Source of the DNA: Chrysophaeum taylorii
Lineage: Eukaryota; Sar; Pelagophyceae; Pelagomonadales; Pelagomonadaceae
Length of the DNA stretch: 64,000 bases
Reading direction: 5' to 3'
NCBI GenBank assembly: GCA_029834535.1
Contig: JAQMWT010000683.1
Coordinates: forward strand, 39,025-103,024
Part shown: piece after piece, positions 24,943 through 58,535 of the stretch
Position numbering within the stretch: the stretch's first letter is position 1
How the letters are laid out: the number at the start of each line of letters is the position of its first letter
The notes under the pieces: generated by a model
Told to the model about the DNA's origin: nothing
Seen by the model: the letters and a program-made list of their open reading frames with translations, nothing else
Databases searched by the model: none
Position numbers and translations under genes: made by a program

Positions 24943-24953
24943 GCGAGCAACCA

Positions 24954-36300: not shown

Positions 36301-36429
36301 TAAACCGAGAGGGGCGGCGAACGTGCCGTCGCGAGTGCATAGGAGCCTGTGCGGTGTCTGGCCTGTAATCGGAATATGACGTATGACGTCACACAAGACG
36401 ATGGGAGCGTAATCAGACGTGATGGGTCT

Positions 36430-38576
36430 CCGAGTCTGAGTCTTCCCCGTAGCGTGGAGATTCCAAATCTTCGATTGACATTGCTTTCACGTAAGGTGTA
36501 GAAGGTCACCGAACGATCCGGCCGTTGGTGGTAGTTTCCTCCGGTTGCAAGCGATGGCTGCTCGTCACTGCGGCATCGGCAACATCATTGGAGGGTCGGG
36601 CGGAGCGTGCCGCGGGGTAAATTACAACTCCCAACGGTGACTGCGCTTCGCAGGGGGTTTGGAACGCGAAAGTCGCGCTCGACTGGCCCGAACTATCTTG
36701 GTATCGGCCTCCGTCGTATTCGTCGTCGCGCGGTCGGCGTCGTCTACGCCGGCGCGAATTTCGACTGGGGCTCCGGCTATCTTTGCGACGGCAGGGCTCG
36801 GACTGGGAGTTCGGCTGTGGAGCCGATGGTGGGGCTCCTACTTCGGCGTCGGCGCGACGATCGTGTAGAAGACGACCGACCGTCCCCCGATCTTGTAGAC
36901 GACGACTTGCCGTCTTTTATACTCCCGACCTCATTCATCATCGTCGCCATCGTGGTTCCGAGCTCGGAGAGGGCAGTTTGGATTTCTGGGTTGGATTCCG
37001 ATCCGCGCGTAGCATGCGCATTCGATGCGTCTTCTTGCTTCTCCCAGGCGGTGCGGGGGATCGGCTGTTTCTTCTCCTTCTTGATGCGCTTCCACACAGC
37101 ACAATAATATGCATCCGGGTCGCGGTTGCAAATCACGCGACGCCCATGCTCGTCTTCGTCGTGTGTAAACCAGAAGAATCCGCATTGTTTACATGTTTCC
37201 GGCACCACCCAGCGGGATCGCGCTCGATTCGTACAGCTGCGTTCCCTGACGGTTGTCCGTATCATCCTTATTCTGTTGATCCGAGGCCATAGCTCGACCT
37301 CCCCGCCCTCGAGGCGGTTTATTGGATTTCGGGTTCGAGGTTGGCGGTGTCCCTTGGTCCTTTTCCTCTTCCATTAATTTCCGAAAGTCGTCTTCTAATC
37401 TCGTAATGAGCGCCACCGTCGACATAAGCGTCAGATAGCTATCTGGATGGCCGCTCCGCATAGTCCGCACCCAGGTTCGTAGGTCTTTAGATGCCAACCC
37501 GCTGATGAGATGGTCGACAATATCGACGTCGTCCATCATGCGTCCGGACTCGTTGCAAAATGCAAATGCTTCAGTTTGGAACTTCGTGCAACACGCTTGC
37601 ACATGCCGCTCCCCACTCTTCTTGGGGATCGAAGCTTGGGTGACCTTCCTGAGCTTGTCGAGCAGCTCCTGCTGCGTACTCGGCGGCCGGCAGGTCGGTC
37701 TAATGTAATCTAGAACGCGGTCGCAATACTGTTTGTTCAGGCGGCGGAGTCGACGAACCGCGACTTCGTGCTCCTTGTCGTCCGCATCAAATTTGAGATA
37801 AAAGGACGGAGCGTGTTTCAACTCATCGCACAGCTCCTCGTACTTCTTTAAATGCCCCTCAAAAATCGGGGCAGCCGTGTCACGCAAATGCACGGGTAAT
37901 AAATATCGTAGTTTTTCGACCGAATAGTGGTCGTCCGCTAACGTGTTCATCACGGCTGCGGAATCCAAATTGAATTGTCGCTGAACGCGACCATCAATCA
38001 CTACTTGAAGTTGTCGGCCTTCAAGCCAGAGATAGGGCGGCAGGGTCGGTTCCGATCAGCCTTCTCGACGGCGTTCGTAAAAGTTTCAGATAGTCCCCTG
38101 GAAATGTTCTACCCTGCGTCTTCGGGTTCCGCCTTATCATCGGCTCCCGTTTCAGTTCTGGAACTGGGTTCATCCCTAGATTCCGTGTTCCTTTCCGGTT
38201 CGGTCCGCCTCGCGGGAGATCGATCCTCTCGCTCCGTACTACGTGGTCGTCTCGCGGGCCGTTTGTGGCTGCTCGCTCGTCGAGCTGCTCGTTCGATTTC
38301 AAACGCTTCCTGTTCGCTTCGAAACTGGTCGACCCGATCGCGCGAGGCCTTGTAGGCTTCGCGTTCTTTGCGGAGCTCCTCCCTTAACTCGAGAAGATCT
38401 TGATTACGTTCTCGTTCTTCTGCTTCTGCCCTTTCGCGGGTGAATCGCTCGGCTAATCGTTCATTCTCGCTCCGGATCCGTTCGAGGTCTTCTCGAATCC
38501 GTCTTCTGCGGTCCGTCTCCTGCTCGATCGTAGCGCGTTCGCCGCGGTCGGGGGTTTCCGTGCTCAACGGCGACAA
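36430..38576 (-). pseudogene. gypsy-C Gag
   Basis: 38576-38109 encodes SPLSTETPDRGERATIEQ and a long charged coiled coil (RIREDLERIRSENERLAERF). A stop and frame change follow. 38001-37189 carries the capsid-like core VIDGRVQRQFNLDSAAVMNT, SVEKLRYLLPVHLRDTAAPI, CRPPSTQQELLDKLRKVTQA, MMDDVDIVDHLISGLASKDL and PRGRGGRAMASDQQ. Next frame: CKQCGFFWFTHDEDEHGRRV then ICNRDPDAYYCAVW, a Cys/His cluster in place of the usual CCHC knuckle. Several shifts make it a pseudogene. Confidence 0.7.
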
Positions 38577-38716
38577 AATATAGCAGGCTCTGCAGGTACT
38601 TCCATAGCGTCGACGTTTTCGTCGTCGCGAATTTCTCCTTGGCCGCGGCTTGCTTCAGCGGCGGCGGGAGGCAATGGAGGCTGTTCTTCTTCATGCTCGT
38701 CAGCTCTCTCCTCCAT
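38564..38716 (-). CDS. gypsy-C acidic leader ORF (50 aa)
   Basis: Starts ATG 38716 and ends TGA 38564-38566. It is Glu-rich at the N-terminus (MEERADEHEEEQPPLPPAAA) and ends VPAEPAIFCRR. The gag frame starts in the -1 phase over the last codons. gypsy-A has the same ORF at 49805-49966 with matching start, acidic/Pro composition and an AIFRR end. It may be a Gag N-terminus joined by -1 frameshifting, or an upstream ORF limiting gag translation. Confidence 0.5.
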   Translation of the reverse strand: MEERADEHEEEQPPLPPAAAEASRGQGEIRDDENVDAMEVPAEPAIFCRR

Positions 38717-40636: not shown

Positions 40637-40959
40637 TATGGCGGCACAGAAAAACCACCCCCGACCCCCGGGTGACAAAGGGGGTACTCACCGACTCGTC
40701 CTAGACCTCACTGAACGAGGAAAACACGGACTCGGTGTCGGGTATGCTCGCCACACACCTTGCTCACGCTCACCAAGCCTCTCAACAAGATGGAGAGATG
40801 GTATATGATAGCAAGAATGCGACAAGCATACTGCAAGAATGCTTCTCACAAGAGTGAGGTATGATGTCACTAGGAAGATAGGGAAAGGCGTCCCGTTGAA
40901 CGGGTATCAAGCCTCGAGAAAGGGAGGGTAAGCCTTAGCGGTCAGGAGTTGCCGCCACA
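40637..40959 (-). repeat. gypsy-A 3' LTR
   Basis: 323 bp, minus strand TGTGGCGGCAACTCCTGACC to TGCCGCCATA. The termini are inverted repeats of 10 bp with one mismatch, so the family ends TG...TA rather than TG...CA. It is preceded by a short purine-rich tract (caccagggag) that may be the polypurine tract. Confidence 0.8.
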
Positions 40960-42970
40960 GGACTCCCTGGTGAGAACACGAGCTGCCCTCCGCGAGTCTG
41001 GCGAGAAGCACGAGCCTTGGCTGAATGAGCGTCTCGGGAACGAATCTTCTTGTAGACACGTTCAACGACAGTTTCAGGAACGCGTCCACCATGCAAAGTG
41101 AACTTAGGAATCAACACATCGATCATCATGCGGGGCGAAGTCGGTGACACAAGGAGTGGTACTGTTGTTGACCTTGGTCTTGTCGGTGAAACTGCGACCG
41201 TCCACGTCCTTGTATTCCGGCTTAAGTTTGCGAGTAGAGAGATGTGAAGTAGGCTTGTAATAAGAAACCTTGTCATGGGGACCGAGATCAGCATAGAAAT
41301 GCAGAGCGACTCGATCATTCACAAAATCATAGGGTTCATAAACTTCAGCGACGTAAATCTTCTTTCGCCAATCGGACCGTTTATTATCCGGAATCCGAAA
41401 GATAACGAACTTACCATGCTTGTAATCATCCCGAAAGGTCTCCTTGGGCTTGGGCACAGCTCGATCGACCACTGGAGAAACCATCACAGGGGTGATCTGG
41501 CTAACATGAACACAACGGCGTTCGGGAGGAGAATCAAGCGACTCAATCCTGTAAGTGACCGGGGACAAGCGTTCCAAAATAACGAATGGACCGCGCCATT
41601 CCGGTCGAAGCTTGTTCTGAAGAAAAGGGATGTAGAGCAGAACATGTGAACCTTCTTCATACTCCACATCAACATGGTCCGCATTGTAAGCGAGGCGTTG
41701 TTTACGAAGAGCCTTCTCACGAGCTTCGTTCACCGTAGCGGTATAGAACTTCAGCCTCTCGCGAGTCTCTGCCACAACATCGGAGCGAGTTTTCGGCAGG
41801 CGGCGGACATCAAGATCCATAATCGTGTAACCGGTTGGCAATAAAGTAACTAACTAACTTCAGACCTCTCCCGAGCATGGGAGCCAGGCCGGACCGACAG
41901 GAGCCAGTCCGGAATCACGGGCCTGTAGACGAGGAGCGCCGAAAGGTCGGTCGGCGGAGAGTGACCATCAAGCTTGTCGCCATGCGACGAGGAGACCGCG
42001 ATGTGACTGAGAACCAACTCGTCGATAACCTTCCGTCTTCGCCCCCCGGCCATACCCCGTCCCACTGCGAACGTTCCGGCTGCCAACCGGCCCGCCCGGG
42101 AGGCGAATAGGTGCCAACCTACGCCGGGAGGGCGGATGCCCTCGCAAGGCTCAGGATTCATGAGGCACCGTCCTCCATCGCAACCGCAGTCGGCGATCAG
42201 GGTAAGGGCAATAAAGGCTGCCGGTTAAGACGAAGCATGAAAGGTGAGATCTGAGTCCCCGGAATAAATTTACGATAGTAACAGAAAGCAATGTACTCCG
42301 CGAATTCGGGCCATTCCGTGATCTTGCGGTTTTAAAGGCACACACGGAGGAAAGCCTTGATAAAGCGGTTGACCCTTTCCGCAGGATTAGCCTGAGCATG
42401 ATACGGAATCGTGGTACTATACCGAACATTGAAAAGATGACAAAACTCTTCCATCAACTTGTTGACGAAGACTTTCCCATTGTCGGTACGAACCCTCGGA
42501 GGTAGATAACCTTTGAGTAATATATTCGCGACAAAAGACTCGAGGATTGACTCAGCAGTCTTATGGTGTAGTACGTCGAGAATCAAGAAATGAGAACATG
42601 GATCAAAAAAGATGATCAGATATGTCTCGGGACCAGCACTGGGCAAAGGTCCAAAAAAATCCATACAAAGGACGACACAATCACCATCATACACCGGTTG
42701 CTGAAGCAGGCCTGCTCTCTTTGGTTCAGGCGTACGAGATTTCTTGCACACTATGCAACCAGCAATGTAAGCACCCACCTCATTAGACATATGGGGCCAC
42801 CAAAAACGTTCAGGTATCGACTGCACTGTACTTTGACGACCCATATGACCACCATCGAGAGGTGTGTCTGAGAGGTGTGTCATGGTACAATCGGATGATG
42901 CGCGTCCGTAAAGTTCGGGGTGCGACTATCATCGGGTGCAAGTCAGGTGCGGCACGGTAGAGAACTCCTT
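40960..42970 (-). pseudogene. gypsy-A integrase
   Basis: Read leftwards: H2C2 finger remnants (GGHMGRQSTVQS, WWPHMSNEVGAYIAGCIVCK) and core with MDFFGPLPSAGPETYL (Asp 1), RTDNGKVFVNKLMEEF (Asp 2) and NPAERVNRFIKAF (Glu). A stop at 42332-42334 follows, then the SINE, then the C-terminal barrel LRPEWRGPFVILERLSPVTY, PPERRCVHVSQITPVM and a family-specific tail (WRKKIYVAEVYEPYDFVNDR, VSYYKPTSHLSTRKLKPEYK). A 1-bp insertion near 41125 shifts the last segment. The RGPF barrel is of the GPY/F type that assists target choice. Confidence 0.75.
41847..42206 (-). mobile_element. SINE sharing the LINE 3' end, second copy
   Basis: Flanked by GGCAATAAAG (41837-41846 and 42207-42216) within integrase codons for LLP. 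Same body as 26267-26646 with a shorter (GTTA)n tail and few substitutions. It interrupts gypsy-A, so it is younger than that copy. Confidence 0.75.
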
Positions 42971-42976: not shown

Positions 42977-45304
42977 CTAGAGAACTCCTTTCACCACTTG
43001 ATAGCGATAATTGGCTCCGTACCGACGAAGAGAATGGCCCTGAGCCATGCGATAACGAATGTCCTCGCATGTAGCATCAGCGATCTGCTCTTTGGCTATC
43101 TCTTCAAAAGTCAAATTATCCGGAATCTTGTCGATGTACTCTTGGTAATCATCGGCATCACGGAAAATACTAGGCTGGGCCTGCAGACGTTGCTTCTGAC
43201 GTTGTTTCGTAGCATGAGACGTGACCAATTGCATCGGATCATCGAGGTCTTCTTCCTCTTCCTCCACAGGCAACTCAGTCGTAACAAATGACAGAATGAC
43301 ATGACACCCAGGTAAAGGTGCTCCTTCATCATCAACAGAGCGAGGAAGTTCTTGGCACACTAGATACGCGTGGTTCAAGGGTTCACCAAACTCGTCCGTC
43401 TCGATGACGTGATCTATAGGATTGCGAGAGAGACATTCAGGGATACTCATTCCCGGCGACTTTCCTGGTTTGTAACCCAATTCAGGATCAAAGTTGGCGA
43501 GCCGCATCGCCCATCGAGCCAACTGCCCAGACGAGTGCTTCGCCTTTCGTAAAAACGTCAAGTTGCGATGATCCGTTTCAAGGATCGTCTTGTGACCTTC
43601 GATATAAGAGCGGAAATGCACAAGAGAAAGAATAACTGCCTGTAGCTCTAGCCGGCGAGGCTCATAGTTCCGCATCTCTTTCGGCACAGCTCGGCTCCAA
43701 TACTCAACTACTCGTTCCTCTCGTGTCACCTTGCCGGTTTCGTCCTTGACTTCCACGAGCTGAAAAAGATACGCGCCCAGACCATCCTTGGAAGCATCCG
43801 AGCGGATCTGAAAAGGAAGATCGTAGTCAGCATGATAAACTCCGCAAGAGTCCACCAAAGCTTCGATGATCGTGTCCCATGCCTTTTGGCACTCAGGCGT
43901 CCACTCAAACTTAACGCCTTCAAGACACAATCGCCTAAGCGGCTCCACAATCTTCGAATAATTCTTCACATATCGGCGGCAATAGTTGCTCATGCCAATG
44001 AAAGATCGAATCTGGGTCTTCGGGGACGTATTAGGCAACGTACCGGGAATCGGCATCTGCTGCAACGCTTCTAACGTCTTGGGATTCGGCTTCAAGCCTT
44101 CCGGAGTCGAAATATGTCCCAAAAACTCGATTTCATCCTTGAGGAGGTGGAACTTCGAAGTTCGTCCACTATATCCTCGCTGTGCTAAATGGCACAACAC
44201 TTCAATCGAAACTTGTAAATGTCGGTGGAGTTCATCCGATCCCATCATAATATCGTCGACAAACGCGACCAAGTCCTTATACATCCATGTGGACAAATCG
44301 CTAGCCATCTGCTTACAAAAGAGAGCTCCTGCTGTTTTTACTCCTAGAGGCAAGCGCAAGAAACTATGGGCTCCAAGTGGACTAACCATCGTAACGGCGT
44401 CCTGAGCAGCGGCGTCCAAACGTAGGTTATGATAACCCCATCGAATATCAATGCACGTCCGCCAACGGCGCATGGCAAGAAAAGCCAAAGCATCATCTTG
44501 ACGAATATTCGGCCAACTGTCATTGACCAGCTGATCATTGAGCTGACGCAAGTCAACTGCAGCACGAAAAGCATTCGACGTCCCGGCCTCTGCTCCCTTC
44601 TTAGGCAGCATCAGTACAGGGAATCCCCACGGAGAGTTCGCCGGTCGGATGACTCCATCGCGACACCACTCAGTGATCTGCTTTCTGAGACACTCGAGCT
44701 TTGCTGGCGTCAACCTATAAGGCGTCATCTTGATCGGTCGTGGGTTTGCGTCTTTAAATCGTAGAGAAACCGGTGGCGAGTCCACGGGTCTCATAATCGG
44801 ATCAAAGAAAGCCCACGCGCATTGCACGCAGTGGCTCAACATCATCTTCGCATCATCATCCAGATGCGGGTTGTCGGGAATTCCCAGATCTCGAACAACC
44901 TTTTCGACTTCTTCCTTCGTCGGAATTACGACTTTCATCGCATCATTGTCCTTGACGTGCTCGGGAGTCTGCGGTAACGGTACACCGTCCGCATCGCGCG
45001 GCGCATCCTTCCATGGCACATCGAACTTTTCTTCGTATTTGAACCTCACCTCAGGGTGGCTCTTATTGATCTTTTCACCTTTGACGCGCACATTCGGCTC
45101 GCTCCTTACTTTCGGCTCCTGTTCAGGTTCAGGATCCGGCGGAACGTCCACTTTTGATTGTCGGGGGGGGGGCAGCAGAAAAAGCATGAGCCGTCCCCGG
45201 CGCATTTGTTGGCAGCGGAAGCATAGGGACTTCTGGCGGTTCCCATTTAGTGGGATCCTGGAGATCATCATTTGACACCCACTTAACGACACGAGTACGC
45301 GCAT
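42977..45304 (-). CDS. gypsy-A reverse transcriptase and RNase H
   Basis: A 775-codon open frame overlapping the upstream MTase frame by 176 bp. An acidic linker (DVPPDPEPEQEPKVRSEPNV) leads to RT: KMTPYRLTPAKLECLRKQIT, DGVIRPANSPWGFPVLMLPK, AVDLRQLNDQL, and catalytic LVAFVDDIMMGSDEL near residue 345. Then FLGHISTPEGLKPNPKTLEA, RNase H (IRSDASKDGLGAYLFQLVEV, RRLELQAVILSLVHFRSYIE, TDHRNLTFLRKAKH) and the start of the integrase H2C2 region (EDIRYRMAQGHSLRRYGANY), ending VVKGVL at a stop where a short duplication disrupts the junction. All RT and RH catalytic residues appear intact. Expression probably needs a frameshift at the C-run near 45163-45172. Confidence 0.85.
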   Translation of the reverse strand: MRVLVSLSGCQMMISRIPLNGNRQKSLCFRCQQMRRGRLMLFLLPPPRQSKVDVPPDPEPEQEPKVRSEPNVRVKGEKINKSHPEVRFKYEEKFDVPWKDAPRDADGVPLPQTPEHVKDNDAMKVVIPTKEEVEKVVRDLGIPDNPHLDDDAKMMLSHCVQCAWAFFDPIMRPVDSPPVSLRFKDANPRPIKMTPYRLTPAKLECLRKQITEWCRDGVIRPANSPWGFPVLMLPKKGAEAGTSNAFRAAVDLRQLNDQLVNDSWPNIRQDDALAFLAMRRWRTCIDIRWGYHNLRLDAAAQDAVTMVSPLGAHSFLRLPLGVKTAGALFCKQMASDLSTWMYKDLVAFVDDIMMGSDELHRHLQVSIEVLCHLAQRGYSGRTSKFHLLKDEIEFLGHISTPEGLKPNPKTLEALQQMPIPGTLPNTSPKTQIRSFIGMSNYCRRYVKNYSKIVEPLRRLCLEGVKFEWTPECQKAWDTIIEALVDSCGVYHADYDLPFQIRSDASKDGLGAYLFQLVEVKDETGKVTREERVVEYWSRAVPKEMRNYEPRRLELQAVILSLVHFRSYIEGHKTILETDHRNLTFLRKAKHSSGQLARWAMRLANFDPELGYKPGKSPGMSIPECLSRNPIDHVIETDEFGEPLNHAYLVCQELPRSVDDEGAPLPGCHVILSFVTTELPVEEEEEDLDDPMQLVTSHATKQRQKQRLQAQPSIFRDADDYQEYIDKIPDNLTFEEIAKEQIADATCEDIRYRMAQGHSLRRYGANYRYQVVKGVL

Positions 45305-48300
45305 TTAACAGCGGAATCTGTACGTGACGAAAGGTGGTGTCGGAGATTCGCAAATACTGCTCAAAGGATCGATCTGTCGGCCTCAACGCGGTCGGCAGGA
45401 CTTCGCCATTTTGGCGGAAACCACTGGTCACGGAGTTGTGCAGATCGACTGCTAAAATCGCAAGAGTGTCTGGAGGGACGACAGACGCTAAATGTTTGAA
45501 CGAATCTGTCTTAGACAAGCTAGCCCAATCATGGTCCACCGGCATCGTGAGCAACTCGGCCGTCATCTCGAGAGTCAAAGGCTGAGTGTCCGAGCGATGC
45601 GGTCCCAAACGAAGAGGAACTCGCGTAACGGTGTAAGCCGTATCTGTTGCTTCTCGGGACGAGCCACGATTATTCAGCTGGAGCAGGTGGCGTTCATGAG
45701 CATAACCTAAAGCTGCAGCAAATTTTGGTTGCATGTTCACACATGTCTTCGGAGCCTCTTGCAAGTGCAGTGGGTGACTGGAAACCAACAATCGCACGCG
45801 AGAGCTCATCAGAGTGGGCGTGATATCATGAAAATTGACGACGTACACGTAAGGGTGTAAGCGCGCTATATAAGAAATAATGGACGCCTCCTGTTCAATC
45901 AGCCACATCATGAAGCCAGCCATTTTGCACAGCTTCATCGTCCAGTTAGTGGCCGTAACACCCCTGCCAACATCTCTGGATGTCAAGTTGCAGAGTGCGG
46001 AATGAACGCAGGGTGGAGACGCTATACACATCGACGATGACCATTCCGCTTCAGGCAAATAAGCCTTGATCAATCGGAGGGTCGAGTCATATCGTCCGCA
46101 GAGCGTGTGCTGAACCACAGGTATCTTCGGAAAATTCTTCTGATGAACCTTGTTGGCAGCTGTTGAAGAGTCAAGAGCAAGGACGACTCGAAACGACGTC
46201 CCGCACAGCTCGTTCGCTCGTTGCAGTCCTAAAGTACATCCTCCGGCGCCGCTAAAGAACATCACAACCTTGCGATACGTGATCGGCACCCAGTGGACCT
46301 TTTCAAACCTTCGGCGAATCTCGCCTTCTGTAACTTCCCGGCATTTCTTTTCCTCCTCGTCAGTTCGTCGGTCGAAATCGTTGTTACCGGGCGATTCTGG
46401 ACGAGAATTCTTCTTCTTATCGGCAGAAGGAGACGCCTTCTGCACCGAGCTCAAAAGCATCGGTTCGGGAGCCGCATCGCCTTGAGTAAGATGGCTTGCG
46501 ACCGAAGCAGTGAATGATAGGTTAGCCTTGTTAGATTCGGCTTCACCATCCTTCGTTAAATCGTCGACCGTCTCAGCATTCAGCTCGTCATCAAAACGAA
46601 CAATATCGCCCAAAGCAAGGACTTCACCTTGAGTAATCACGGTCGGCACATCCTGGGTAGAGGATATCGCCACTCGAGCTGCGAACTTATCATGGTCCTC
46701 AGGAGAAGAACACATTCCATCGACTACCCCGAGTTGCTCGTACCCAGAAGACGTAGCAACGAAAACTTGCCCAGTTTCCACGGGCTCTGAAAGAGCGACT
46801 GGCACGCAGTAGGTGCGCCCAGGCTCGACCTTCATCGTGCGCGCAGCATAGGCTATCACTTCATAGGCATCGCTGTTCGAACTTTGAGAAGGCGCAACTG
46901 GAGGGATTCCCCAAGTCCTCGAAGCTCCCGGTCGTTTCGGCGGTGGACGCTGGAGGTCTTCAATCTTGCACAAGCGAGCGTAGCGCTCGACTGGAAGATC
47001 GCCCCGGTCAAGGATGATGCTATCCTTTGCCAGTTTTTCGACCATCCCACGACGAATATAGGAGACATCAGCCATTCCATCCACGCCTAAAGTCGTTGCG
47101 AACTTCGGCCCGTCTCGTCGTCTATAAATATGACCAACTATAAACGTAAGTGTACCAGGGTCCAGACAGCCGATGGTGATGAGGTCTTGCTCGATCTTTT
47201 CCCCATCGCTCGGCGAAAGTGCAGTGTGATGACATCGTATCTCCGGTTTCGCATCGCCCGGCATCTGCATCGTCACCGCTGCTATATCTGGCGTTCCACG
47301 TCTCGCCTCAGAATCTATATTGGCGCTCGCCGCTTCGGCTGCTTCCTCATTCCCCAGTTTCGCTGACAACAAATTCTGACACTCCTCAATCGGAGGCACA
47401 TGTATTTCCTCCTTTATCTCTTCTGGCAATCGTCGTTCCTCGTCCATCAAATCGGACATTCCCGTCAACTTCTCCTCCATCGGCGGCGCTGTGGTGTGCT
47501 CTGCTGCGACCAAAACTGTGTCGGCTAAAACATCGGCTAAAACGGTCTCGGGGGGGGCCGTAGGAAAAGAAGACGTCGTCCCCGACGTCAACTCAAAAGG
47601 TCTAACGTCATCATCGTGAACTGCCCTGCAAGACAAGCACATTGACGAATGGGGAGACACTGGAACCTGCGGCATGGGCTCGTCGGTCTCCGAATCTGAC
47701 CCTTCCCAGTAGTGCGGAGAATCCCAAGTAGCATCTGACATTGCTTCCACATACGATGTAGAAGGCCACCGAACGATCCGAGCGTTGGTGGTATGTTGCT
47801 CCTGTTGCAAACGATGGCTGCTCGTCACAGCGACATCGGCAACATCATCGGAGACTCGGGCAGGGCGCGCCGTCGGGTAAAAGACAACCCCCAACATTGG
47901 CGGCGCGTCGCATAAAGATTGGAACGCGAAAGATGCGCTCGAATGTCCCGAACTATCCTGATATCTGCCTCCGTCATACTCGTCATCGTAATGTCGATGA
48001 CGTCGGCGCCGGCGCGAATTGCGACTAGAGCTCCGGTGACGGCGGGGACTCGGGCTGGTTTGAGGAGTATTGGCCTTTCGATCAGGGCTCTGGCTTCGAT
48101 GTCGGCGCGACGATCGTCTATAAGGTGATCGTCCGTCTCGCTGTCGTGTAGAAAACGACGTAGTATCCTTGATGCCTCTGACCTCGCTCACCATGGTCGC
48201 CATTGTGGTTCCAAGATCGGTGAGAGCCGTTTGAATTTCATTAGAAGGCTCCGATCCGCGAGTGGCGTTCGCATGAGATGCATCATCACGCTTCGCCCAA

Positions 48301-48812
48301 TCGGAGCGCGATATGGGTGGCTTCTTCTGCTTACAAATACGCTTCCACATCGCAGAGTAGTAACGATCCGGATCGCGGTTGCAAACCATGCGATTTCCGT
48401 GTTCATCTTCACCATGGATGGTCCAGAAGAACCCGCAGTGCTTGCACGTTCTCTTGCCCCACAAAAAAGGATCTCGTAAGATCAGCGGATCCGTATTCCC
48501 AGACGGTTTATCCGCATCTTGCTTGGCTTGTTGATCGGAGGCCATAGCTCGACCTCCCCGCCCTCGCGGCGGTTTATTCGATTTCGGATTAGGAGGGCCT
48601 TGGTCCTTTTCCTCCTCCATCAACTTTCGCAAGTCGTTCTCGAGCCGCGTAATAAGCGCCACCATCGACTGAAAAGTCAAGTAACTATCAGGATGTCCGC
48701 TCCTCATAGTCTGCACACGGGTCCTCAACTCCTTGGATGTCAATCCACCGACAAGCTGGTCGAGGATATCGACATCATCCATCGTGCGGCTGGAAACGGA
48801 ACAAAACTCCAA
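45129..48812 (-). CDS. gypsy-A Gag C-terminus, protease-like segment and cytosine-5 DNA methyltransferase
   Basis: A 1,227-codon frame, open back to a TAG at 48978. Residues 1-75: end of Gag capsid and Arg/Gly linker. About 115-150: CKHCGFFWTIHGEDEHGNRM then VCNRDPDRYYSAMW (Cys/His cluster). About 560-600: FATTLGVDGMADVSYIRRGM, a degenerate protease loop. About 845-1110: methyltransferase with motif I VVMFFSGAGGCTLGLQRA, II VVLALDSSTAANKV, IV MCIASPPCVHSALC, V-like KLCKMAGFMMWLIEQ, VI region YVYVVNFHD (ENV glutamate not seen), VIII SSRVRLLVSS, IX PLTLEMTAELLTMP and X FKHLASVVPPDTLAI. C5 enzymes methylate cytosine from SAM. Downstream RT lies in another phase. The missing motif VI Glu leaves activity uncertain. 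Confidence 0.82.
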   Translation of the reverse strand: MEFCSVSSRTMDDVDILDQLVGGLTSKELRTRVQTMRSGHPDSYLTFQSMVALITRLENDLRKLMEEEKDQGPPNPKSNKPPRGRGGRAMASDQQAKQDADKPSGNTDPLILRDPFLWGKRTCKHCGFFWTIHGEDEHGNRMVCNRDPDRYYSAMWKRICKQKKPPISRSDWAKRDDASHANATRGSEPSNEIQTALTDLGTTMATMVSEVRGIKDTTSFSTRQRDGRSPYRRSSRRHRSQSPDRKANTPQTSPSPRRHRSSSRNSRRRRRHRHYDDEYDGGRYQDSSGHSSASFAFQSLCDAPPMLGVVFYPTARPARVSDDVADVAVTSSHRLQQEQHTTNARIVRWPSTSYVEAMSDATWDSPHYWEGSDSETDEPMPQVPVSPHSSMCLSCRAVHDDDVRPFELTSGTTSSFPTAPPETVLADVLADTVLVAAEHTTAPPMEEKLTGMSDLMDEERRLPEEIKEEIHVPPIEECQNLLSAKLGNEEAAEAASANIDSEARRGTPDIAAVTMQMPGDAKPEIRCHHTALSPSDGEKIEQDLITIGCLDPGTLTFIVGHIYRRRDGPKFATTLGVDGMADVSYIRRGMVEKLAKDSIILDRGDLPVERYARLCKIEDLQRPPPKRPGASRTWGIPPVAPSQSSNSDAYEVIAYAARTMKVEPGRTYCVPVALSEPVETGQVFVATSSGYEQLGVVDGMCSSPEDHDKFAARVAISSTQDVPTVITQGEVLALGDIVRFDDELNAETVDDLTKDGEAESNKANLSFTASVASHLTQGDAAPEPMLLSSVQKASPSADKKKNSRPESPGNNDFDRRTDEEEKKCREVTEGEIRRRFEKVHWVPITYRKVVMFFSGAGGCTLGLQRANELCGTSFRVVLALDSSTAANKVHQKNFPKIPVVQHTLCGRYDSTLRLIKAYLPEAEWSSSMCIASPPCVHSALCNLTSRDVGRGVTATNWTMKLCKMAGFMMWLIEQEASIISYIARLHPYVYVVNFHDITPTLMSSRVRLLVSSHPLHLQEAPKTCVNMQPKFAAALGYAHERHLLQLNNRGSSREATDTAYTVTRVPLRLGPHRSDTQPLTLEMTAELLTMPVDHDWASLSKTDSFKHLASVVPPDTLAILAVDLHNSVTSGFRQNGEVLPTALRPTDRSFEQYLRISDTTFRHVQIPLLNARTRVVKWVSNDDLQDPTKWEPPEVPMLPLPTNAPGTAHAFSAAPPPTIKSGRSAGS

Positions 48813-48977
48813 GGCACCCGATTGGAATCCGGCACAGTACGTCTGGGCGTGCCGCTCCCCAGACTTCTTCGGAACTGAAGCCTGGGTGACCTTCCGCAGC
48901 TTGTCGAGCAGCTCCTGCTGCGTGCTCGGAGGTCGGCAAGTCGATCTAAAAGAATCCAGAATTTTATCACAATACGT

Positions 48978-49808
48978 CTAATTAAGACGACGGATGCGAC
49001 GAACCGAGGCTCCATGCTCTTCATCGTCAGTATCCAATTTCAAGTAAAACGACGGACCGTGCGGTAGCTCATCGCAGAGCTCCTCGTATTTCTGCAAGTG
49101 TTCCTCAAAAATTGGTGCAACGGTGTCCCGTAGATGCACTGGTAGGAGGTAACGTAATTTCTCGACCGAGTAATGTTCATCTGCTAAAGTATGCATCATC
49201 GCTGCCGAATCCAAATTGAATTGCCGTTGATCTCGGCCGTCGATGACGAGTTTGAAGTTGTCAGGCTTCAAACTGGAGGTGGGGCGACGGGATCGGCTCA
49301 CGTTGCCCTTTTCGAAGGCGTCCGCAACCGTCTGCGATATTCCCCGCGATAATTCCCGTAAATTTTTCGTACCTTCATTCTCAACTTCCGTCCTACCCTC
49401 AGTCTCCGTATCGACTCGGGGCGGAGGTTCATTCCCCGTTTCAGTGTTCCTTTCCGGTTCAGGCGGCCTCACGGGCGTTGCCGGTTCGGGTCGACTCACG
49501 GGTCGTTCGCGGCTACTCTCACGACGCGTACGTTCGGCTAACAATTCATCTCGTTCACGACGAAATCGTTCAGCCTCTTCACGTAGGGTCTTCGATGTCT
49601 CAATCTCTTGCTGCAATGCGTCATTGAGCATGTCAACTTCTCGTCGAGCCGCCTCCTCTTTCGCTCCAGCCCTTTCACGGGCGAAACGCTCAGCTAATCG
49701 TTCATTTTCGCGACGTCTCCGCTCGAGGTCTTCACGAAGTCGACTTCGGGCTGCAGATCCGCGCTCAATAGAAACACGCTCGCCACGGTCCGGAGTCGTT
49801 GGTCTCAA
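48978..49808 (-). CDS. gypsy-A Gag N-terminal part
   Basis: 276 codons from a non-ATG point (TTG 49808) in the same frame as the following 1,227-codon ORF: RPTTPDRGERVSIERG, a charged coiled coil (LREDLERRRRENERLAERFA), then RNTETGNEPPPRVDTETEGR and the capsid-like KLVIDGRDQRQFNLDSAAMM, YSVEKLRYLLPVHLRDTVAP, ending VRRIRRLN at TAG 48978-48980. gypsy-C has Lys at that codon, so the TAG is probably a nonsense mutation in this copy, or a readthrough site. The start may lie in the leader ORF through a -1 shift. Confidence 0.7.
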   Translation of the reverse strand: MRPTTPDRGERVSIERGSAARSRLREDLERRRRENERLAERFARERAGAKEEAARREVDMLNDALQQEIETSKTLREEAERFRRERDELLAERTRRESSRERPVSRPEPATPVRPPEPERNTETGNEPPPRVDTETEGRTEVENEGTKNLRELSRGISQTVADAFEKGNVSRSRRPTSSLKPDNFKLVIDGRDQRQFNLDSAAMMHTLADEHYSVEKLRYLLPVHLRDTVAPIFEEHLQKYEELCDELPHGPSFYLKLDTDDEEHGASVRRIRRLN

Positions 49809-49966
49809 CGGCGAAAAATGGCAGTATCCGGAGGCACGTCAGGGGGCACGTCAGCAACGTCGACTGCCTCGGCCTCTCTTAATTCATCTTCCTCGCGGCC
49901 TATCTCAGGGGCGGTGGGAAGAACTGGTGGAGATTCTTCCTCACGCACGTCTGCGTTTATCTCCAT
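49805..49966 (-). CDS. gypsy-A acidic leader ORF (53 aa)
   Basis: ATG 49966, stop TGA 49805-49807. It encodes an acidic, Pro-containing peptide (MEINADVREEESPPVLPTAP, then EIGREEDELREAEAVDVADV, ending PPDTAIFRR). The gag frame is -1 relative to it and overlaps at attttTCGCCGTTGAG. The counterpart in gypsy-C (38564-38716) keeps the same start, composition, AIF.RR ending and phase. That points to function, either frameshifted Gag or translational control. Confidence 0.5.
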   Translation of the reverse strand: MEINADVREEESPPVLPTAPEIGREEDELREAEAVDVADVPPDVPPDTAIFRR

Positions 49967-50383: not shown

Positions 50384-50402
50384 AATCTCGTGTACTCCAC
50401 CA
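50384..50402 (-). other. gypsy-A primer-binding site
   Basis: Minus strand TGGTGGAGTACACGAGATT, 2 bp downstream of the 5' LTR. Its complement has a tRNA 3' architecture: T-loop end AAT, T-stem CTCGT, acceptor GTACTCC, discriminator A, CCA. The tRNA identity cannot be named without the host tRNA set. Confidence 0.65.
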
Positions 50403-50404: not shown

Positions 50405-50727
50405 TATGGCGGCACAGAAAAAACCTTCCCGACCCCCGGGTGACAAAGGAGGTACTCACCGATTCGTCCTAGACCTCACTGAACGAGGAAAACACGGACT
50501 CGGGGTCGGATATGCTCGCCACACACCTTGCTCACGCTCACCAAGCCTCTCAACAAGATGGAGAGATGGTATATGACAGCAAGAATGCTACAAGAATACA
50601 GCAAGAATGCTTCTCACAAGAGAGAGGTATGATGTCACTAAGAAGATAGGGAAATGTGTCCCGCTGAACGGGTATCAAGCCTCGAGGGAGGGAGGGTAAG
50701 CCTTAGCGGTCAGAAGCTGCCGCCACA
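50405..50727 (-). repeat. gypsy-A 5' LTR
   Basis: 323 bp, the partner of 40637-40959, with the same TGTGGCGGCA...TGCCGCCATA termini and about 20 differences. It should carry the element promoter, but no confident TATA box was identified. It lies 137 bp beyond the stop of the 1,611-codon host gene. Confidence 0.8.
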
Positions 50728-50863: not shown

Positions 50864-53800
50864 TTATCCTGAGCTCAGGGAGACGGTTGCTGAAATTCGC
50901 TCTTTCTTGGTCTGTGAATCCTGTTTTCGCGAGTGCACAAAGCTACTATGTGAGCTACTAGGCCTCAAGCCAAACTGGAGATTGGAAGGTAGTGGATTCT
51001 GTGCTGTGCGCTCATGACTTCTGCGCCGCTCCAAATCACTGAGATCTTGGATTGCGGCAACAGCTCTGAGACATGACACAAATTCCGAATGACATTGACC
51101 ATCGTCGCAAGGAACAGGAAATTCTGAAGAGGCGTAGCAGTTACCTCGAAATGTTCTGGGCTTCACACACTCAGAAACGTAAGAGAAACCATATGAGGTC
51201 TTCGCCTTGGATCCACACATCCCCAGGTCTTGGATGGTACGCTTGTAATTCATCAGCACAGAAAGGACTCTATAAACCTTAGTTACATGCGTGTCATACG
51301 TCGACGTGCGAGTATCGTAGTCGATGTAGTCAAGCCGAGAGGCTTGGAATGCAATGTTCCAAGGAGCCATGTCTTCGTAAAGGGGAAGTTTCACGAAACT
51401 AGAAAAAGCGTGCTTACGCTGTGGTGAAATCAAGCCCAGCCGAATTGCAGCTATCAGAGTAATACTACGGATGCTACCATACGGGATATAAGAAGCATCT
51501 TCATCGCGCTGAAGGTAAACATGCATCACATTTCCGTTTGAAATGTGGTGTCCCATTGGAAGGTCAACGTACCTTGGAACATAGACAGTATTCAACTCCA
51601 CACTACCACCACCTGCCACTTCGTCTAGTGCAGGTGTCTCCACCATACTCGAGCCTCGAATGTAACGGCCGCATGCCACTGTTGCTGTGCTGTTGGTGGT
51701 TATATGCATTGTGTACGTGCGCGTGTGGCCATCTCGTGACCAGTCGAAATGATGGTGGACAGCTCGCGTGAGATTTACGACATCGACCCTTGAAAGTGGC
51801 GGCGGAAAAAGCATTTTGTCAAAAACAGAACTCCCACGCACAGTTAAGAGAGGATTTCCACCCAAAACTGGCCGCGATGCCAGCCGTTCAATGAGATCAG
51901 CTTCGAAGTCTGCGAACTCTGATGACTCTGATAGCTGAAAACTTAGAGAAGAGTGAGGGTACTGGTAGAAAAGGGTGCTCATGGCAAGCGACACATGCAT
52001 CGCAGATGGAAGTGGTATGAATGTCGTCACAGAGGATAAAATCAGGGCCCCCACCATTTTTTTGGTATCATGATTTTGAGCGTCATCGTTTGATGCCATT
52101 TTTATCGCACCCGCAAGGCCATACTTACTATCAAGAAACCCATCGTTAAGCGCAAGAAATGAGTACCGCGCGAGCTCCGGCGATTCGTACATGTGAGTTG
52201 CCAGTTTACGGTCAACATGGACACCTGAACAAGCAACAACATTGCCATAAATCACCGATTTAGCGTGAAGTTCAACTGCAGCATCGATGTCACTTCCAGC
52301 AACTGACACAACCGTTGCGTTGGGATATTTACGCGCAACGCTGAGAGCAACAGGATGATTTGTGATGCCCCATTCGAAAAAAGAAAATCTACCATTCCGA
52401 TGTTCAGCCGGGGTCTCGTTCAGAAATGCCTCCACTGCCAACCTCATGGTTTCGTCACGTTTAAGTTGAAATCCTGCGCACTCCTTAAGAAGAGGCACCC
52501 ACATCACAAGGGGAGGAGAGATGGCTACCTGCAGCGAGCCATGTGGCGTGCTGCCAACCTCAGCTTCGTCCTCAGGACCCTTATTAAAGCCACGAAGAAT
52601 TAATTGATCAGGGCCAAAGCGAAGCTGGGCCGCTGTCAAGGCCTGCTGAACAACACTTCGATTTTCGTTGGCACATACTGCCAAGTACCACAACGGCAAG
52701 TTAAGATGGGCAAGAAGAAGACGGGATCGCCAGTAAGGTGTAACGCCTGTGTTCAACAACGCGCCAATCGCTACGGATCCCGCTTCTTTATCTACGGAAC
52801 CGAGGTCGATATGATCCCCAAGTGTCATCTTGAACAACACAGGATCTTCGGCTGGTACACGGGTGTCCGACGATGTCAGAGTAGGCACTGACAAAGTAGG
52901 TGCCGACACATCTGCCTGGGACAGAATTTCCAAACTAACGGTATGATGTTCACTAACAGACTGTACAACTTGCTTCATCAACCTCCACTCATCGCTGCCA
53001 TAGGCTGTCTGAAATGCGGCTCTACAGGTCGGCGCCGAGGAACTCAGGAACTTCTCCACGAGTGCGAATCGAGGAAGTTCAACCAAAGCTACCCTACCGG
53101 CTTGCATTACAGCGTCAGTTACACGGTGCTGGAAATCTTTAATCGAACACCCGTCGGCAAGAAACTTCGCCACAGTAGACGCACCAAGAAACACGAAGGA
53201 AAACGAACTATGTTGCAGATACGGCATGTGCATGATATTTCGTGTGGCATGCGATTCACTGGCAGTTATGACGTTATTAGCCCCAACAGTTGCCGCCAGC
53301 TTTTCAAGTACCGAGATTTTTGTACTTCTCTTGACGACGATAGTTGACAATTTGTGTTTGCGCGCGAGCCGCAGTGCCACCATACCGAGATTTTCACCGT
53401 GCACTAACACACTGAAAGGTTGTTCGCGCCTTCTCAACAAGCGCTTTACGTGTGGCCACCAGCGAGTGGCAACTCGCCCCTCGTCTTGCGCAAATTTTGA
53501 GAGTTCGTTCGAATTGAAGGTACTACTTACCTTGTCAGAAACCAGACTTCGTGGGATACTGTTCTGTTCAACACGGATTGTGCCTCCTACGCCCAGTGCC
53601 CTACTGGCATCATTAGTGCGAATCACTGCTGGAGCCGCACAACGCTCGTTTCCACAAGCGCTGGGTACCCGCAAGTGCGTTATTGCTTGCATGTATCGTA
53701 GATGCTTCTGCCCCCAAGTAGCGGAGTTCGACAGATTGGTATGGTGAACTGAGGAGATACCGACAAAGCGTGGCGCATTGTAAGCAGCGATCGACTGGAA

Positions 53801-55699
53801 CCTTCGACGCCTAGCCGCAATCAAATGTGGGTCACATCCCACAAGCAAACCAGCCTTGAATGCTAGGTAATTATTGTCGTCTACCATGATACAAGGTAGT
53901 AGAGAATCCTTATCAAACGCATTGGCAAATATTCGCACAGCCTCGCTATCAGTGAGGCTAAATGTGGCCCGGAGTGTTTTGAGTCGGAATAAGTGAAGTC
54001 GCATACGCCCTTGTGCATGGTAGGATGACATGTTTCGCGCTACAACTAAAACACTCCCGCGACGATGGGTGTCTGGTGAAATGGCATGGGCGTACTTTGT
54101 TGGCTGTCGGTACTCCCGCAACCTGTAGACTTCTGGTCCTTGGATTTGGTTTATGGCTGAATCGACATAAGTTCGAGGGGTCGACCAATAGTTCGCGTAA
54201 GGCCAAGACTCGTGGGTTTCCTCGATGATTGCCGATTTCAGGCACCACTGGAGAACTCGCGCAAGCATAAGTTCAGCGTCAGGTGGAAGCATTGTGGCGA
54301 GTAAGGACATAACTGCTCCAGGAGAAATTACAAGCAAGTCACAGTCTTCTTTAAGTGCTGGCATGGCTCCATCAGGGCGTCCAGCAATCCAACCGCCAGG
54401 GGCTTCGTCGTCGTCATCCCCCATCAATTTCTTTGGGTGCAGTATCAGAGTGTTTGTCACCTCGAGCATCTCTCTCGCGGCAGCGATTGCAGTCAAATTG
54501 GCTTCGTCTTGGCAAGCGTGTAATATCGCAACCGATGATTGAGGGTTGTCTGCCGCGAAGACCAGAGGAGCCAAGGGAGGTTCTGGGCCGTCAAAGCACC
54601 CCAGCCATAACATGGAGATCTCATTTTCAGCAATGTCTCCAAGCAGCGCGAGCCAAGCAGCCGAAGACTTGAAAAGACGTGTGTATAGATCAGACTTCGT
54701 GTCCTTCTTCCCTGTAATGTCGCCGTGTACAAATGCATTCTTGAGCGCGAGGAAATTCAGAATTGACACAGTAGGGAGTTGGGAGCCTCTCACGAAAGCA
54801 CCGCTGCCAAACGCTCGTGTGGACGGACGCTGTGTTAGTCGCAGGGTGTGTCCATGAGGAACAGGAAGTAACGCAGCATTACGCGCAAGCACGGTCACAT
54901 TCACGCCCTTGGGTACCTTTGTTCCATTGAGCAATTCAGGCTTCAGCTCCGTTCTCACCTTATTTTGTAGGTTTGTGGCGGACCAGACAGGCAAGGTCAG
55001 ATTTGTGTGTTCAAATTTCTGGGGCCCATCAACCTCACCAAGCACGGTTCTCATTTCGTGTTGAACACGCACATTCTTGCTGCCATTGTTCCTGCTAGAA
55101 ATGTGATCCGGCTTGCGACTGAATAATTCTTGCTTGACGCCTACTAGCCCACGAGAGCCCATTGAAGTCGCGATGAGATCTCTGCTAGCGAACCACGTCT
55201 TCCCAGGTTCACTTCCTGCCGTGATCCTAGAATCGAGCGAACTGTGTTTGTCAGTTGAATTCACAGGCTCTGGTGTGAGTTGGAATGACTCCATTGAGAC
55301 AAGTGTTCCAACATTTCGAGAACTCACAGGCAGGTCCCCAGTCACGCTACGATTTGTGATCGCGTGTCGTTGTGTCGGCACTATATCAACATTGGAAATG
55401 AAACCTTCGTCAGAAGTTATCGCCATCTTGTTGAGCTCGATATGTTTTCTGCGTACCGACGCGCTTGTGCTTAAAAAATCTTGGAGTTGCATCTCACGAG
55501 TTTCAGCCAGCTGTTGCTCTGAAATGTCAGAAGTGAGCATTGTTAGCCAGGCGCTCGTGCTCGAGAATATTACACCGAGACCCAAGCTTACGCACAACAG
55601 ATTTTTTCGTCGCGGGCGCCAAAGTATGAAGCTGTAGGGATTGCGCGCAGGTTGATTCCCTCGCTGCAACGAAGTGGCCGAATCTGTCCCACGAGGCAT
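50864..55699 (-). CDS. Large single-exon type II membrane protein with Rossmann-like segments, unknown function
   Basis: 1,611 codons from ATG 55699 without interruption. Residues 1-32 are basic, 33-56 hydrophobic (LLCVSLGLGVIFSSTSAWLT): a signal anchor placing the bulk in the secretory lumen or outside. N-glycosylation-like NxS/T sites are frequent (NVTVL, NSTDK, NLTLP, NSTAT). Three stretches look like β-α-β Rossmann folds: about 360-420 (ISMLWLGCFDGPEPPLAPLV), 762-880 (SVLVHGENLGMVALRLARKH then STIVVKRS) and 1105-1190 (FSFFEWGITNHPVALSVARK then ATVVSVAG). All are reminiscent of methyltransferase cores with weak motif I. The C-terminus (about 1490-1550) is Cys-rich. No family recognised; a Golgi glycan-modifying or scaffold role is only conjecture. 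It is the sole intact non-transposon gene here, flanked by gypsy-A and unclear DNA. Confidence 0.85.
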   Translation of the reverse strand: MPRGTDSATSLQRGNQPARNPYSFILWRPRRKNLLCVSLGLGVIFSSTSAWLTMLTSDISEQQLAETREMQLQDFLSTSASVRRKHIELNKMAITSDEGFISNVDIVPTQRHAITNRSVTGDLPVSSRNVGTLVSMESFQLTPEPVNSTDKHSSLDSRITAGSEPGKTWFASRDLIATSMGSRGLVGVKQELFSRKPDHISSRNNGSKNVRVQHEMRTVLGEVDGPQKFEHTNLTLPVWSATNLQNKVRTELKPELLNGTKVPKGVNVTVLARNAALLPVPHGHTLRLTQRPSTRAFGSGAFVRGSQLPTVSILNFLALKNAFVHGDITGKKDTKSDLYTRLFKSSAAWLALLGDIAENEISMLWLGCFDGPEPPLAPLVFAADNPQSSVAILHACQDEANLTAIAAAREMLEVTNTLILHPKKLMGDDDDEAPGGWIAGRPDGAMPALKEDCDLLVISPGAVMSLLATMLPPDAELMLARVLQWCLKSAIIEETHESWPYANYWSTPRTYVDSAINQIQGPEVYRLREYRQPTKYAHAISPDTHRRGSVLVVARNMSSYHAQGRMRLHLFRLKTLRATFSLTDSEAVRIFANAFDKDSLLPCIMVDDNNYLAFKAGLLVGCDPHLIAARRRRFQSIAAYNAPRFVGISSVHHTNLSNSATWGQKHLRYMQAITHLRVPSACGNERCAAPAVIRTNDASRALGVGGTIRVEQNSIPRSLVSDKVSSTFNSNELSKFAQDEGRVATRWWPHVKRLLRRREQPFSVLVHGENLGMVALRLARKHKLSTIVVKRSTKISVLEKLAATVGANNVITASESHATRNIMHMPYLQHSSFSFVFLGASTVAKFLADGCSIKDFQHRVTDAVMQAGRVALVELPRFALVEKFLSSSAPTCRAAFQTAYGSDEWRLMKQVVQSVSEHHTVSLEILSQADVSAPTLSVPTLTSSDTRVPAEDPVLFKMTLGDHIDLGSVDKEAGSVAIGALLNTGVTPYWRSRLLLAHLNLPLWYLAVCANENRSVVQQALTAAQLRFGPDQLILRGFNKGPEDEAEVGSTPHGSLQVAISPPLVMWVPLLKECAGFQLKRDETMRLAVEAFLNETPAEHRNGRFSFFEWGITNHPVALSVARKYPNATVVSVAGSDIDAAVELHAKSVIYGNVVACSGVHVDRKLATHMYESPELARYSFLALNDGFLDSKYGLAGAIKMASNDDAQNHDTKKMVGALILSSVTTFIPLPSAMHVSLAMSTLFYQYPHSSLSFQLSESSEFADFEADLIERLASRPVLGGNPLLTVRGSSVFDKMLFPPPLSRVDVVNLTRAVHHHFDWSRDGHTRTYTMHITTNSTATVACGRYIRGSSMVETPALDEVAGGGSVELNTVYVPRYVDLPMGHHISNGNVMHVYLQRDEDASYIPYGSIRSITLIAAIRLGLISPQRKHAFSSFVKLPLYEDMAPWNIAFQASRLDYIDYDTRTSTYDTHVTKVYRVLSVLMNYKRTIQDLGMCGSKAKTSYGFSYVSECVKPRTFRGNCYASSEFPVPCDDGQCHSEFVSCLRAVAAIQDLSDLERRRSHERTAQNPLPSNLQFGLRPSSSHSSFVHSRKQDSQTKKERISATVSLSSG

Positions 55700-56105
55700 A
55701 GATCACAGGACACGGATGCCGATATGGCGCTTCAAACTCTCTCAAGAACGAGTTGAGAAGCGCAGACTTAATTTTCGGATTCGCCGCAATTAGAGCAACG
55801 ACGGTGACTTATTAACGAGTCCTTACTACTAATTGGCAGATCACGGCTGCTTCGCTACGGCCCCCTAGCGTCAGCCCTCTATAGAAACCCTAATCGACTT
55901 TTCAAGAACCAAGTTTGTCCGTCGGCCAATCGCCGCAGCGCCGGCCGTCGATGCTTGTGGAGGAGGAGTGACCAAACTCGCTGGGGGACCTCCTTGACAC
56001 ATATCCTTGTCATGGTAAGCGGCGCCGCGGCGCGCGAATTTGTATGTGTCGCGTGGGCGGCGGTGTTTGTGGGCTGTTTGAATTAAGGACGCGATGCGCT
56101 TTTCT
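55700..56105. other. Upstream region of the large gene, no gene seen
   Basis: Lies before the ATG of the minus-strand gene and should hold its promoter and 5' leader. No convincing TATA or initiator could be picked. Minus-strand frames around 55871-56498 overlap the palindrome and are probably incidental. Confidence 0.35.
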
Positions 56106-57002: not shown

Positions 57003-57689
57003 GTGAGCAACCACGAAGGCCTCTTTCTGGATGACATCAACGGCATGTGGACTGGATTACCCGCCGATGAGCCCATGGAGACGGATGGTCACACGATGAC
57101 GAAGGCAAAGGAAGAGATCGATGCCGTCATCAAGCGCGTCGATCCCCTCTAGCGCGCCTACGCGTCTCTCTTCCATCTCATCCGCGCTGCGCGTCTCCTC
57201 ACCGACTCCGAGGTCGAGAGGCTCTGCGCCGCCTGTGACACCGCGTCTACTGCCGCACGCAAGGTGTACCCGACCATCCACGTGAAGTTCAAGCTCCACA
57301 TCATCGATGATCATGTCAAGTACGCCGCCACACGCCGGCTCACGGTCGGATTCTTCACCGAGGACGCCTGCGAGGCGATCCACAAGTTCGCGAACGAGCT
57401 GAACGGACACTTAGCATGGGTCAAGGGCGCCACCAAGCAGGAGTCGAAGTTCAAAGCCCTCGAAGTCATGGGCCGGCCGGACGTCCAGCCCCTTGGGGAC
57501 GCTCGCCGCAAGCGTCGGGCACGCGGACCATGCGGCAAGATCCCAAAGACGTCGCGCTTGGCATTCCGAAATGAGTTGAGTAGAGACCTCGGGTTTGGAC
57601 GCGAGCTGACCCTAGAGGGCCGAAAGAGGCGCTTTGAAACAGCCGTGAGATGTTTGTCTGTCTGTTTGTCTTTAAAGGTCGACTGCTAA
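57003..57689 (+). pseudogene. Broken coding region, possible transposon-derived protein
   Basis: One frame from 57003 (NHEGLFLDDINGMWTGLPAD, TKAKEEIDAVIKRVDPL) meets TAG 57150-57152. It then continues RAYASLFHLIRAARLLTDSE, YPTIHVKFKLHIIDDHVKYA, LTVGFFTEDACEAIHKFANE and KFKALEVMGRPDVQPLGDAR to 57689. The spacing of H..DH, then E..EAIH.F.N, recalls uncharacterised proteins encoded by DNA transposons in animals and algae, but this is only a resemblance. Bases 56975-56980 (tcgcag) could be a splice acceptor, so 56656-57002 might include an intron. Confidence 0.4.
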
Positions 57690-57815
57690 GAGGGGGGGGG
57701 AGGTGTGGTGCATGAAGGGTGTGTGTGGTTTTGTGGCTGTCTGTTTGTCTTTAAAGGTCGACTGCTAAGAGGGGGGTGTGTGTGTGGTGCATGAAGTATG
57801 TGTGTGCTTTTGTGG
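57658..57815. repeat. Two tandem 79-bp repeats
   Basis: The unit ctgtctgtttgtctttaaag...gtcgactgctaagagggggg...ggtgcatgaag...ttttgtgg occurs at 57658-57736 and again from 57737 with small changes in the G and GT runs. Confidence 0.85.
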
Positions 57816-58213: not shown

Positions 58214-58535
58214 TATGGCGGCACAGAAAAACGTTCCCGACCCCCGGGTGACAATGGGGGTACTCACCGACTCGTCCTAGACCTCACTTAACGAGGAAAA
58301 CACGGACTCGGGGTCGGGTATGCTCGCCACACACCTTGCTCACGCTCACCAAGCCTCTCAAGAAGATGGAGAGATGGTATATGATAGCAAGGATACTACA
58401 AGAATACAGCAAGAGTGCTTCTCACAAGAGAGAGGTGTGATGTCACTAAGAAGATCGGGAAAGGTGTCCCGTTGAACGGGTATCAAGCCTCGAGAGAGGG
58501 GGGGTAAGCCTTACCGGTCAGGAGTTGCCGCCACA
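58214..58535 (-). repeat. gypsy-B 3' LTR
   Basis: 322 bp with the same termini as the gypsy-A LTRs (minus strand TGTGGCGGCAACTCCTGACC to TGCCGCCATA) and scattered substitutions. The integrase frame runs into its first bases. Confidence 0.8.

Follow-up and report, generated by a model that had tools for sequence, protein, structure and literature searches.

Why would a retrotransposon carry and preserve a cytosine methyltransferase? Cytosine methylation is a standard weapon of hosts against transposons, and a transposon with its own preserved enzyme therefore reverses the usual story. The question is raised by a 64,000-nucleotide stretch of the pelagophyte alga Chrysophaeum taylorii (contig JAQMWT010000683.1, positions 39,025 to 103,024; hereafter the window), in which an earlier note, made from the sequence alone, had claimed a C5 methyltransferase inside a Ty3/gypsy element. 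Our analysis supports this claim: a C5-cytosine-methyltransferase-type domain at 45429-46358 (minus strand) is carried by a Ty3/gypsy-type long terminal repeat (LTR) retrotransposon. The domain sits between a Gag/protease-like part and the reverse transcriptase (RT), is present in nearly all scored copies of the family, and is kept by purifying selection. We put at roughly 60% the probability that a C. taylorii Ty3/gypsy family captured a C5-methyltransferase domain and keeps it in its Gag-Pol, so that the enzyme would be packaged and would methylate the element's own nucleic acid.

The domain, taken as a 310-amino-acid query, lies in the last third of a minus-strand open reading frame (ORF) at 45129-48977. 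This frame is open throughout, as had been claimed, although it runs to 1282 codons from stop to stop, or 1217 from the first ATG, and not to the 1,227 codons first given. The five motifs quoted in the earlier note (FFSGAGGCTLGLQRA, SPPC, SSRVRLLV, PLTLEMTAELL, and FKHLASVVPP) were all located in it. In three MAFFT modes, six minus-strand segments aligned in register with reference enzymes: motif I, FFSGAGG, for S-adenosylmethionine (SAM) binding (46239-46259); motif IV, SPPC, which includes the catalytic cysteine (46008-46019); motif VI, EQE replacing ENV (45888-45896); motif VIII, SSRVR, with RxR kept (45792-45806); a motif IX-like PLTLEMTAELLTMP (45540-45581); and a motif X-like segment, the FKHLASVVPP named above (45471-45500). 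An FxGxGG motif I with an acidic motif II, a feature of the C5 superfamily, is thus present. We followed these motifs through 50 copies, consisting of the 30 top matches and 20 picked for spread from 128 scored places. FSGAGG was found in 46 copies, the motif IV cysteine and the first glutamate of motif VI in 49 each, and RVR in 48, with motif VIII reading SSRVR or SCRVR in most. In M.HhaI, the motif VI glutamate contacts the target cytosine; in the predicted model of our domain, motif VI follows the strand at residues 149-154.

At E <1e-3, matches in Pfam, PHROGs, and NCBIfam were to C5 methyltransferases only, and not to unrelated Rossmann families, the outcome against which the earlier note had warned. 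The PF00145 search that it had proposed gave a divided answer: the isolated domain scored 25.6 bits, above the 22-bit cut-off, and all 20 copies of our alignment A1 matched (best E 1.4e-6), but the whole ORF reached only 20.6 bits (E 3.3e-4), below the cut-off and over the motif I-II part alone. PHROG_363, a phage DNA methyltransferase family, matched the domain at 33.6 bits. Shuffle and profile tests were run on the 37 of 50 copies that were stop-free and exactly 310 codons long; none of 2000 shuffles reached the motif I-III profile score, and a Dnmt2 profile scored a median of 33 bits against a best of 6.3 in 1000 shuffles of one copy. A local hhalign comparison of A1 with a HhaI-type profile aligned motifs I-II at a probability of 61.7% (E 7.7e-5). 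No relative of the polyprotein region or of A1 was found among 2270 and 5474 word-sharing candidates, respectively, from a large protein database, and none of A1 in viral and genome contig collections (28 and 50 pattern stretches), all collections in which few eukaryotic transposons are presumed to be represented, so that these negatives carry little weight.

Searching the genome with the domain gave 1035 first-look candidates, of which 128 were scored; all were 78-100% identical and 106 lacked stop codons. These 128 places include probable haplotype duplicates, since matches lie at nearly equal positions on both members of the contig pairs C10/C297, C6/C268, and C25/C521, which suggests that haplotypes were assembled separately and that copy counts are inflated. 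An RT census reduced 1890 candidates to 60 rows and, once second fragments on C333 and C263 were dropped, to 58 loci. A scored domain lies 125-260 bp upstream of RT at 27 of these. We fetched all 31 others and found a same-strand domain match in 26, several of them partial (e.g., L082 and L096), and no such match at the remaining five (L081, L083, L098, L103, and L104); the match at L103, on the opposite strand, was left out of the count, which would otherwise be 27 of 31. In total, 53 of the 58 RT copies have the domain or a portion of it, so that the other refuting outcome named in the earlier note, its absence from other full-length family members, did not arise.

The 50 copies fall into two subfamilies, A (32 copies) and B (18 copies), whose domains differ by a nonsynonymous divergence (dN) of 0.116 at saturated synonymous divergence (dS), a ratio of about 0.05. 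B copies are about 78-83% identical to the window copy in the domain and about 84-87% in RT. Within 30 A copies, the median dN/dS (pooled value in brackets) was 0.21 (0.21) for the domain, 0.29 (0.43) for RT, and 0.43 (0.52) for the upstream region, and these parts were stop-free in 26, 21, and 18 copies, respectively; the 30 copies are top matches of the domain query, a choice that favors intact domains, and their pairs are non-independent. L093, at 51-63% identity a candidate third subfamily, was dropped as a frame-broken B copy.

The carrier is a Ty3/gypsy-type LTR retrotransposon, as judged from its LTRs, tRNA primer site, Pfam matches, and gene order, all on the minus strand. Its 5' LTR (50405-50727) and 3' LTR (40637-40959) are each 323 nt long and align without gaps at 93.5% identity (21 differences). 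A putative primer-binding site (50385-50402) starts 2 nt past the 5' LTR and is complementary at 16 of 18 bases to the CCA-extended 3' end of tRNA-Ala(CGC) L277, at 15 to tRNA-Ala(AGC) L288, and at 14 to tRNA-Ala(TGC) L290. The three best matches were thus all tRNA-Ala among the 20 loci compared, out of 28 that lie outside C696 and C697, both assumed to be organelle contigs. The exact primer-site sequence was also sought as a tRNA; it occurs only in the window and on C577, where ARAGORN called no tRNA. A 286-amino-acid ORF (48978-49838), named Gag-like by position, had no Pfam match at E <0.1, and 136 of its 519 genome-wide candidates were scored. The rest of Gag and a protease-like part would occupy 46359-48977 of the 1282-codon ORF, again with no Pfam match; visual inspection there suggests a stretch like a zinc knuckle, and also LGVDGMADVSYI, which looks similar to a retropepsin site. 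Downstream of the domain lie an RT/RNase H ORF (42977-45304; PF00078 at 1.7e-12, PF17917 at 1.5e-25), which overlaps the methyltransferase ORF by 176 nt in a different frame, and an integrase ORF (42332-42925) with an H2C2 zinc finger (PF17921, 3.7e-12) and an rve core (PF00665, 3.5e-11). The order RT, RNase H, integrase is typical of Ty3/gypsy elements. No clean target-site duplication was visible by eye in the flanks inspected.

The coding region of the window copy is broken into several frames, and this copy is probably non-autonomous. In two subfamily-B copies, both on C5, the domain and RT share one uninterrupted frame, 3063 and 3067 codons long, respectively. The window contains two further copies of the family on the minus strand. 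One, at 58210-63739, has an LTR at 58210-58535, integrase and RT fragments at 59543-62319, and a frame-broken methyltransferase part inside 62330-63739; the other, at 36425-38585, is a relic in which pieces of Gag and of the upstream ORF part survive. Immediately upstream of the 5' LTR, a 1612-codon open frame (50864-55702, minus strand) had no Pfam match at E 0.01, and two tandem 79-nt units, 90% identical, lie at 57655-57812. The host contig (C683) belongs to a 70.8 Mb assembly of 697 contigs, published as 71 Mbp in 702 contigs (PMC10366177). A Dnmt2-like gene on C634 of this assembly is 100% identical to CTAYLR_008533 of C. taylorii, and 84 matches to the chlorophyll-binding family agree with an algal genome.

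What would such an enzyme do? As the domain adjoins RT in Gag-Pol, it would enter the particle together with RT and the tRNA primer. There it could methylate nucleic acid of the element itself; newly made cDNA is the likeliest substrate and would then arrive already bearing 5-methylcytosine. Such a mark might label the cDNA as self, shield it from attack, or dampen the new copy to a level that the host tolerates. Very few residues separate motif VIII from motif IX, and sequence specificity may therefore be low or located elsewhere.

Several observations count against this proposal, some concerning its expected traces and others the domain itself. C/T differences among copies showed no excess at CpG (0.0545 at CG, against 0.0436 at CA, 0.0552 at CC, and 0.0627 at CT), and the CpG observed/expected ratio of the element is 1.17 (0.72 in its LTR), showing no depletion; lasting CpG methylation has thus left no clear footprint. 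Moreover, the domain of a Gypsy element from Klebsormidium was inactive in yeast, a result that its authors regarded as inconclusive (PMC5890265).

Within the domain, profile support fades beyond motifs I-III. With a combined profile, the score of motifs IV-VIII was reached by 51 and 48 of 2000 shuffles, a weak result, and with a HhaI-type profile 335 and 383 of 2000 did as well. Motifs IX-X were non-significant with either profile in this regional hidden Markov model test (2000 shuffles); in a separate test, 3 of 300 permutations were as good. By hhalign, the C-terminal half reached a probability of 2.9%, and a global comparison of the whole domain (A1) with the HhaI-type profile gave nothing. 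AlphaFold2 with family sequences alone failed, with a pLDDT (predicted local distance difference test) of 35. A better-scoring, guided model matched known enzymes structurally over its full length (VIA-align 20.6 for M.HhaI and 19.6 for Dnmt2 and DNMT1), but it is partly circular because its alignment already contained known C5 enzymes, 27 of 59 rows being Dnmt2. These weaknesses, together with the sub-threshold Pfam score of the whole ORF and a TIGR00675 score of 18.4 bits against a cut-off of 100.65, are what one could cite for a chance Rossmann-like motif with no methyltransferase behind it. We consider this very improbable, given the motif I-III score that no shuffle matched, the restriction of family matches to C5 methyltransferases, the order and spacing of the motifs, and the full-length match of the guided model.

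Two departures at motif level also belong here. The ENV of the C5 superfamily (PF00145) reads EQE, with both the asparagine and the valine changed, and motif VIII lacks the glutamine of QxRxR found in the aligned references. Along with the very long branch of the family (4.5 and 6.7 changes per column in the two trees described below), they would fit a domain that is catalytically dead and kept for binding or assembly, whether of nucleic acid, as a SAM sensor, or as a Gag-Pol spacer. We think this unlikely: FSGAGG, the catalytic cysteine, and the motif VI glutamate are retained at the frequencies given above, and a dN/dS of 0.05 is too low for a pure spacer.

A different question is whether the substrate might be RNA. 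The domain is Dnmt2-like by profile, which makes Dnmt2 a candidate origin: against the 33 bits of the Dnmt2 profile, whose alignment runs through the catalytic SPPC motif, the M.HhaI-type profile scored 11.5 bits (best shuffle 4.2), these two being the only kinds of profile built. BLASTP against a fish Dnmt2 (P0094) gave E 6e-8 in a single comparison, at 28% identity over 88 amino acids. The only three matches in a sequence search of the PDB were DNMT2, although non-significant (E 0.09-0.2); with A1 as query DNMT2 appeared at E 0.8-0.9, alongside unrelated GGA1 entries, one of them ranked first. The top five Foldseek matches of the guided model were likewise DNMT2, to be read with the Dnmt2 share of its alignment in mind. 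Because tRNA serves as primer for LTR elements, and this one has a site resembling a tRNA-Ala match, the domain could be a Dnmt2-derived RNA methyltransferase that acts in the particle on the tRNA-Ala primer or on genomic RNA.

Other results make this RNA substrate quite unlikely. The CFT motif is a signature of the Dnmt2 family, yet the corresponding columns read TVT, and no cysteine occurs at residues 225-260 of the window copy. Phylogeny bore out a Dnmt2 placement only in part: the family fell inside Dnmt2 at 97/100 when the long-branched host DNMT5-like row L002 was included (family branch 6.7 changes per column), and without that row no position was supported (31/72; 4.5 changes per column), both trees using selected rows from which L189 and L217 were lost as too short. 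VIA-align was higher for M.HhaI than for Dnmt2, PHROG_363 scored about as well as the Dnmt2 profile, and tRNA-Ala is not known as a usual Dnmt2 substrate. That a retrotransposon recruited a tRNA methyltransferase of the Dnmt2 type to its particle, to act on its own primer or genomic RNA, is a long shot; if true, mobile DNA would here be modifying its own primer, and an LTR element would be retaining a cytosine methyltransferase to work on RNA instead of DNA. Methylation of the element's own cDNA remains our preferred reading.

The earlier note had called this the second, different-looking methyltransferase in the window, and indeed another family occurs at 30620-32002 (minus strand), 9982-11508 (plus), and 20443-21183 (plus). 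It has TLPC and ENV, the latter reading ENA in the copy at 30620, and matches PF00145 in two copies (E 6e-9 and 3.2e-7). BLASTP showed no significant similarity between this family and the domain of the gypsy element. Genome-wide, 92 of 697 candidates were scored, at 62-100% identity. Beyond the 20443 copy, on its downstream side, rve (24076-24939) and RVT_2 (24723-26273) are weakly matched, which hints at an element of the Copia type, with membership of these parts in one element being putative. In the host, a frame on C621 (L002/L293, 15462-21500) combines a C5-methyltransferase domain, SNF2 (PF00176, 3e-14), and a non-significant RING-like stretch. By this domain content it is DNMT5-like, and the alga may thus have DNA methylation of its own; DNMT5a and DNMT6 have been placed in pelagophytes (PMC9998398).

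Retrotransposon-borne C5 methyltransferases as a kind are already known. A 2018 study described them in Symbiodinium (LINE and DIRS elements) and Klebsormidium (Gypsy) (PMC5890265), in agreement with the dinoflagellate and the charophyte mentioned in the earlier note, and other papers cite them (PMC12344493, PMC6338049). We found no report from pelagophytes in the literature covered, most subscription journals being outside its scope, and the consulted main text of the C. taylorii genome paper (PMC10366177) has no word starting with retrotrans, transpos, or repeat. As far as searched, novelty lies in the lineage of the host, the type of enzyme, and the number of copies. We infer, independently of any tree, that the enzyme was acquired separately from the lineages reported earlier.

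Compared by description, KnitGypsy-Dnmt3 of Klebsormidium nitens is Dnmt3-related and has a DIRS-like repeat arrangement (PMC5890265), whereas the C. taylorii element has direct LTRs, a tRNA-Ala-like primer site, and a pelagophyte host, fits Dnmt2 over M.HhaI-type enzymes, and occurs at no fewer than 128 scored places, some of them probable haplotype duplicates. SymbioDIRS-Dnmt3 and SymbioLINE-Dnmt are likewise high-copy retrotransposons with the domain in their coding region, but they belong to the DIRS and LINE classes and carry Dnmt3 or orphan enzymes; activity was shown for SymbioDIRS only, whose domains methylate CG in yeast, with cDNA as the proposed substrate (PMC5890265). Among cellular enzymes, Dnmt2/TRDMT1 (e.g., host CTAYLR_008533, P0001, on C634) shares SPPC, an acidic motif II, and, by eye, TPT before RxR. 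Unlike it, the element domain has EQE for ENV, lacks the CFT cysteine, and sits in a retroelement polyprotein; its identity to the Dnmt2 rows of alignment A2 is 18-22%. It differs from M.HhaI-type enzymes by the lack of PCQ, ENV, and QxRxR, by the low profile score, and by the very short VIII-IX region. The C. taylorii element adds a stramenopile to the two lineages of 2018, with a very divergent enzyme present in many copies in the 71 Mb genome of an alga that is cultivated in the laboratory. With two methyltransferase families in one window, the reason why retroelements repeatedly capture such enzymes becomes testable, and the preserved domain suggests that a mobile element uses a type of enzyme that hosts often employ for silencing.
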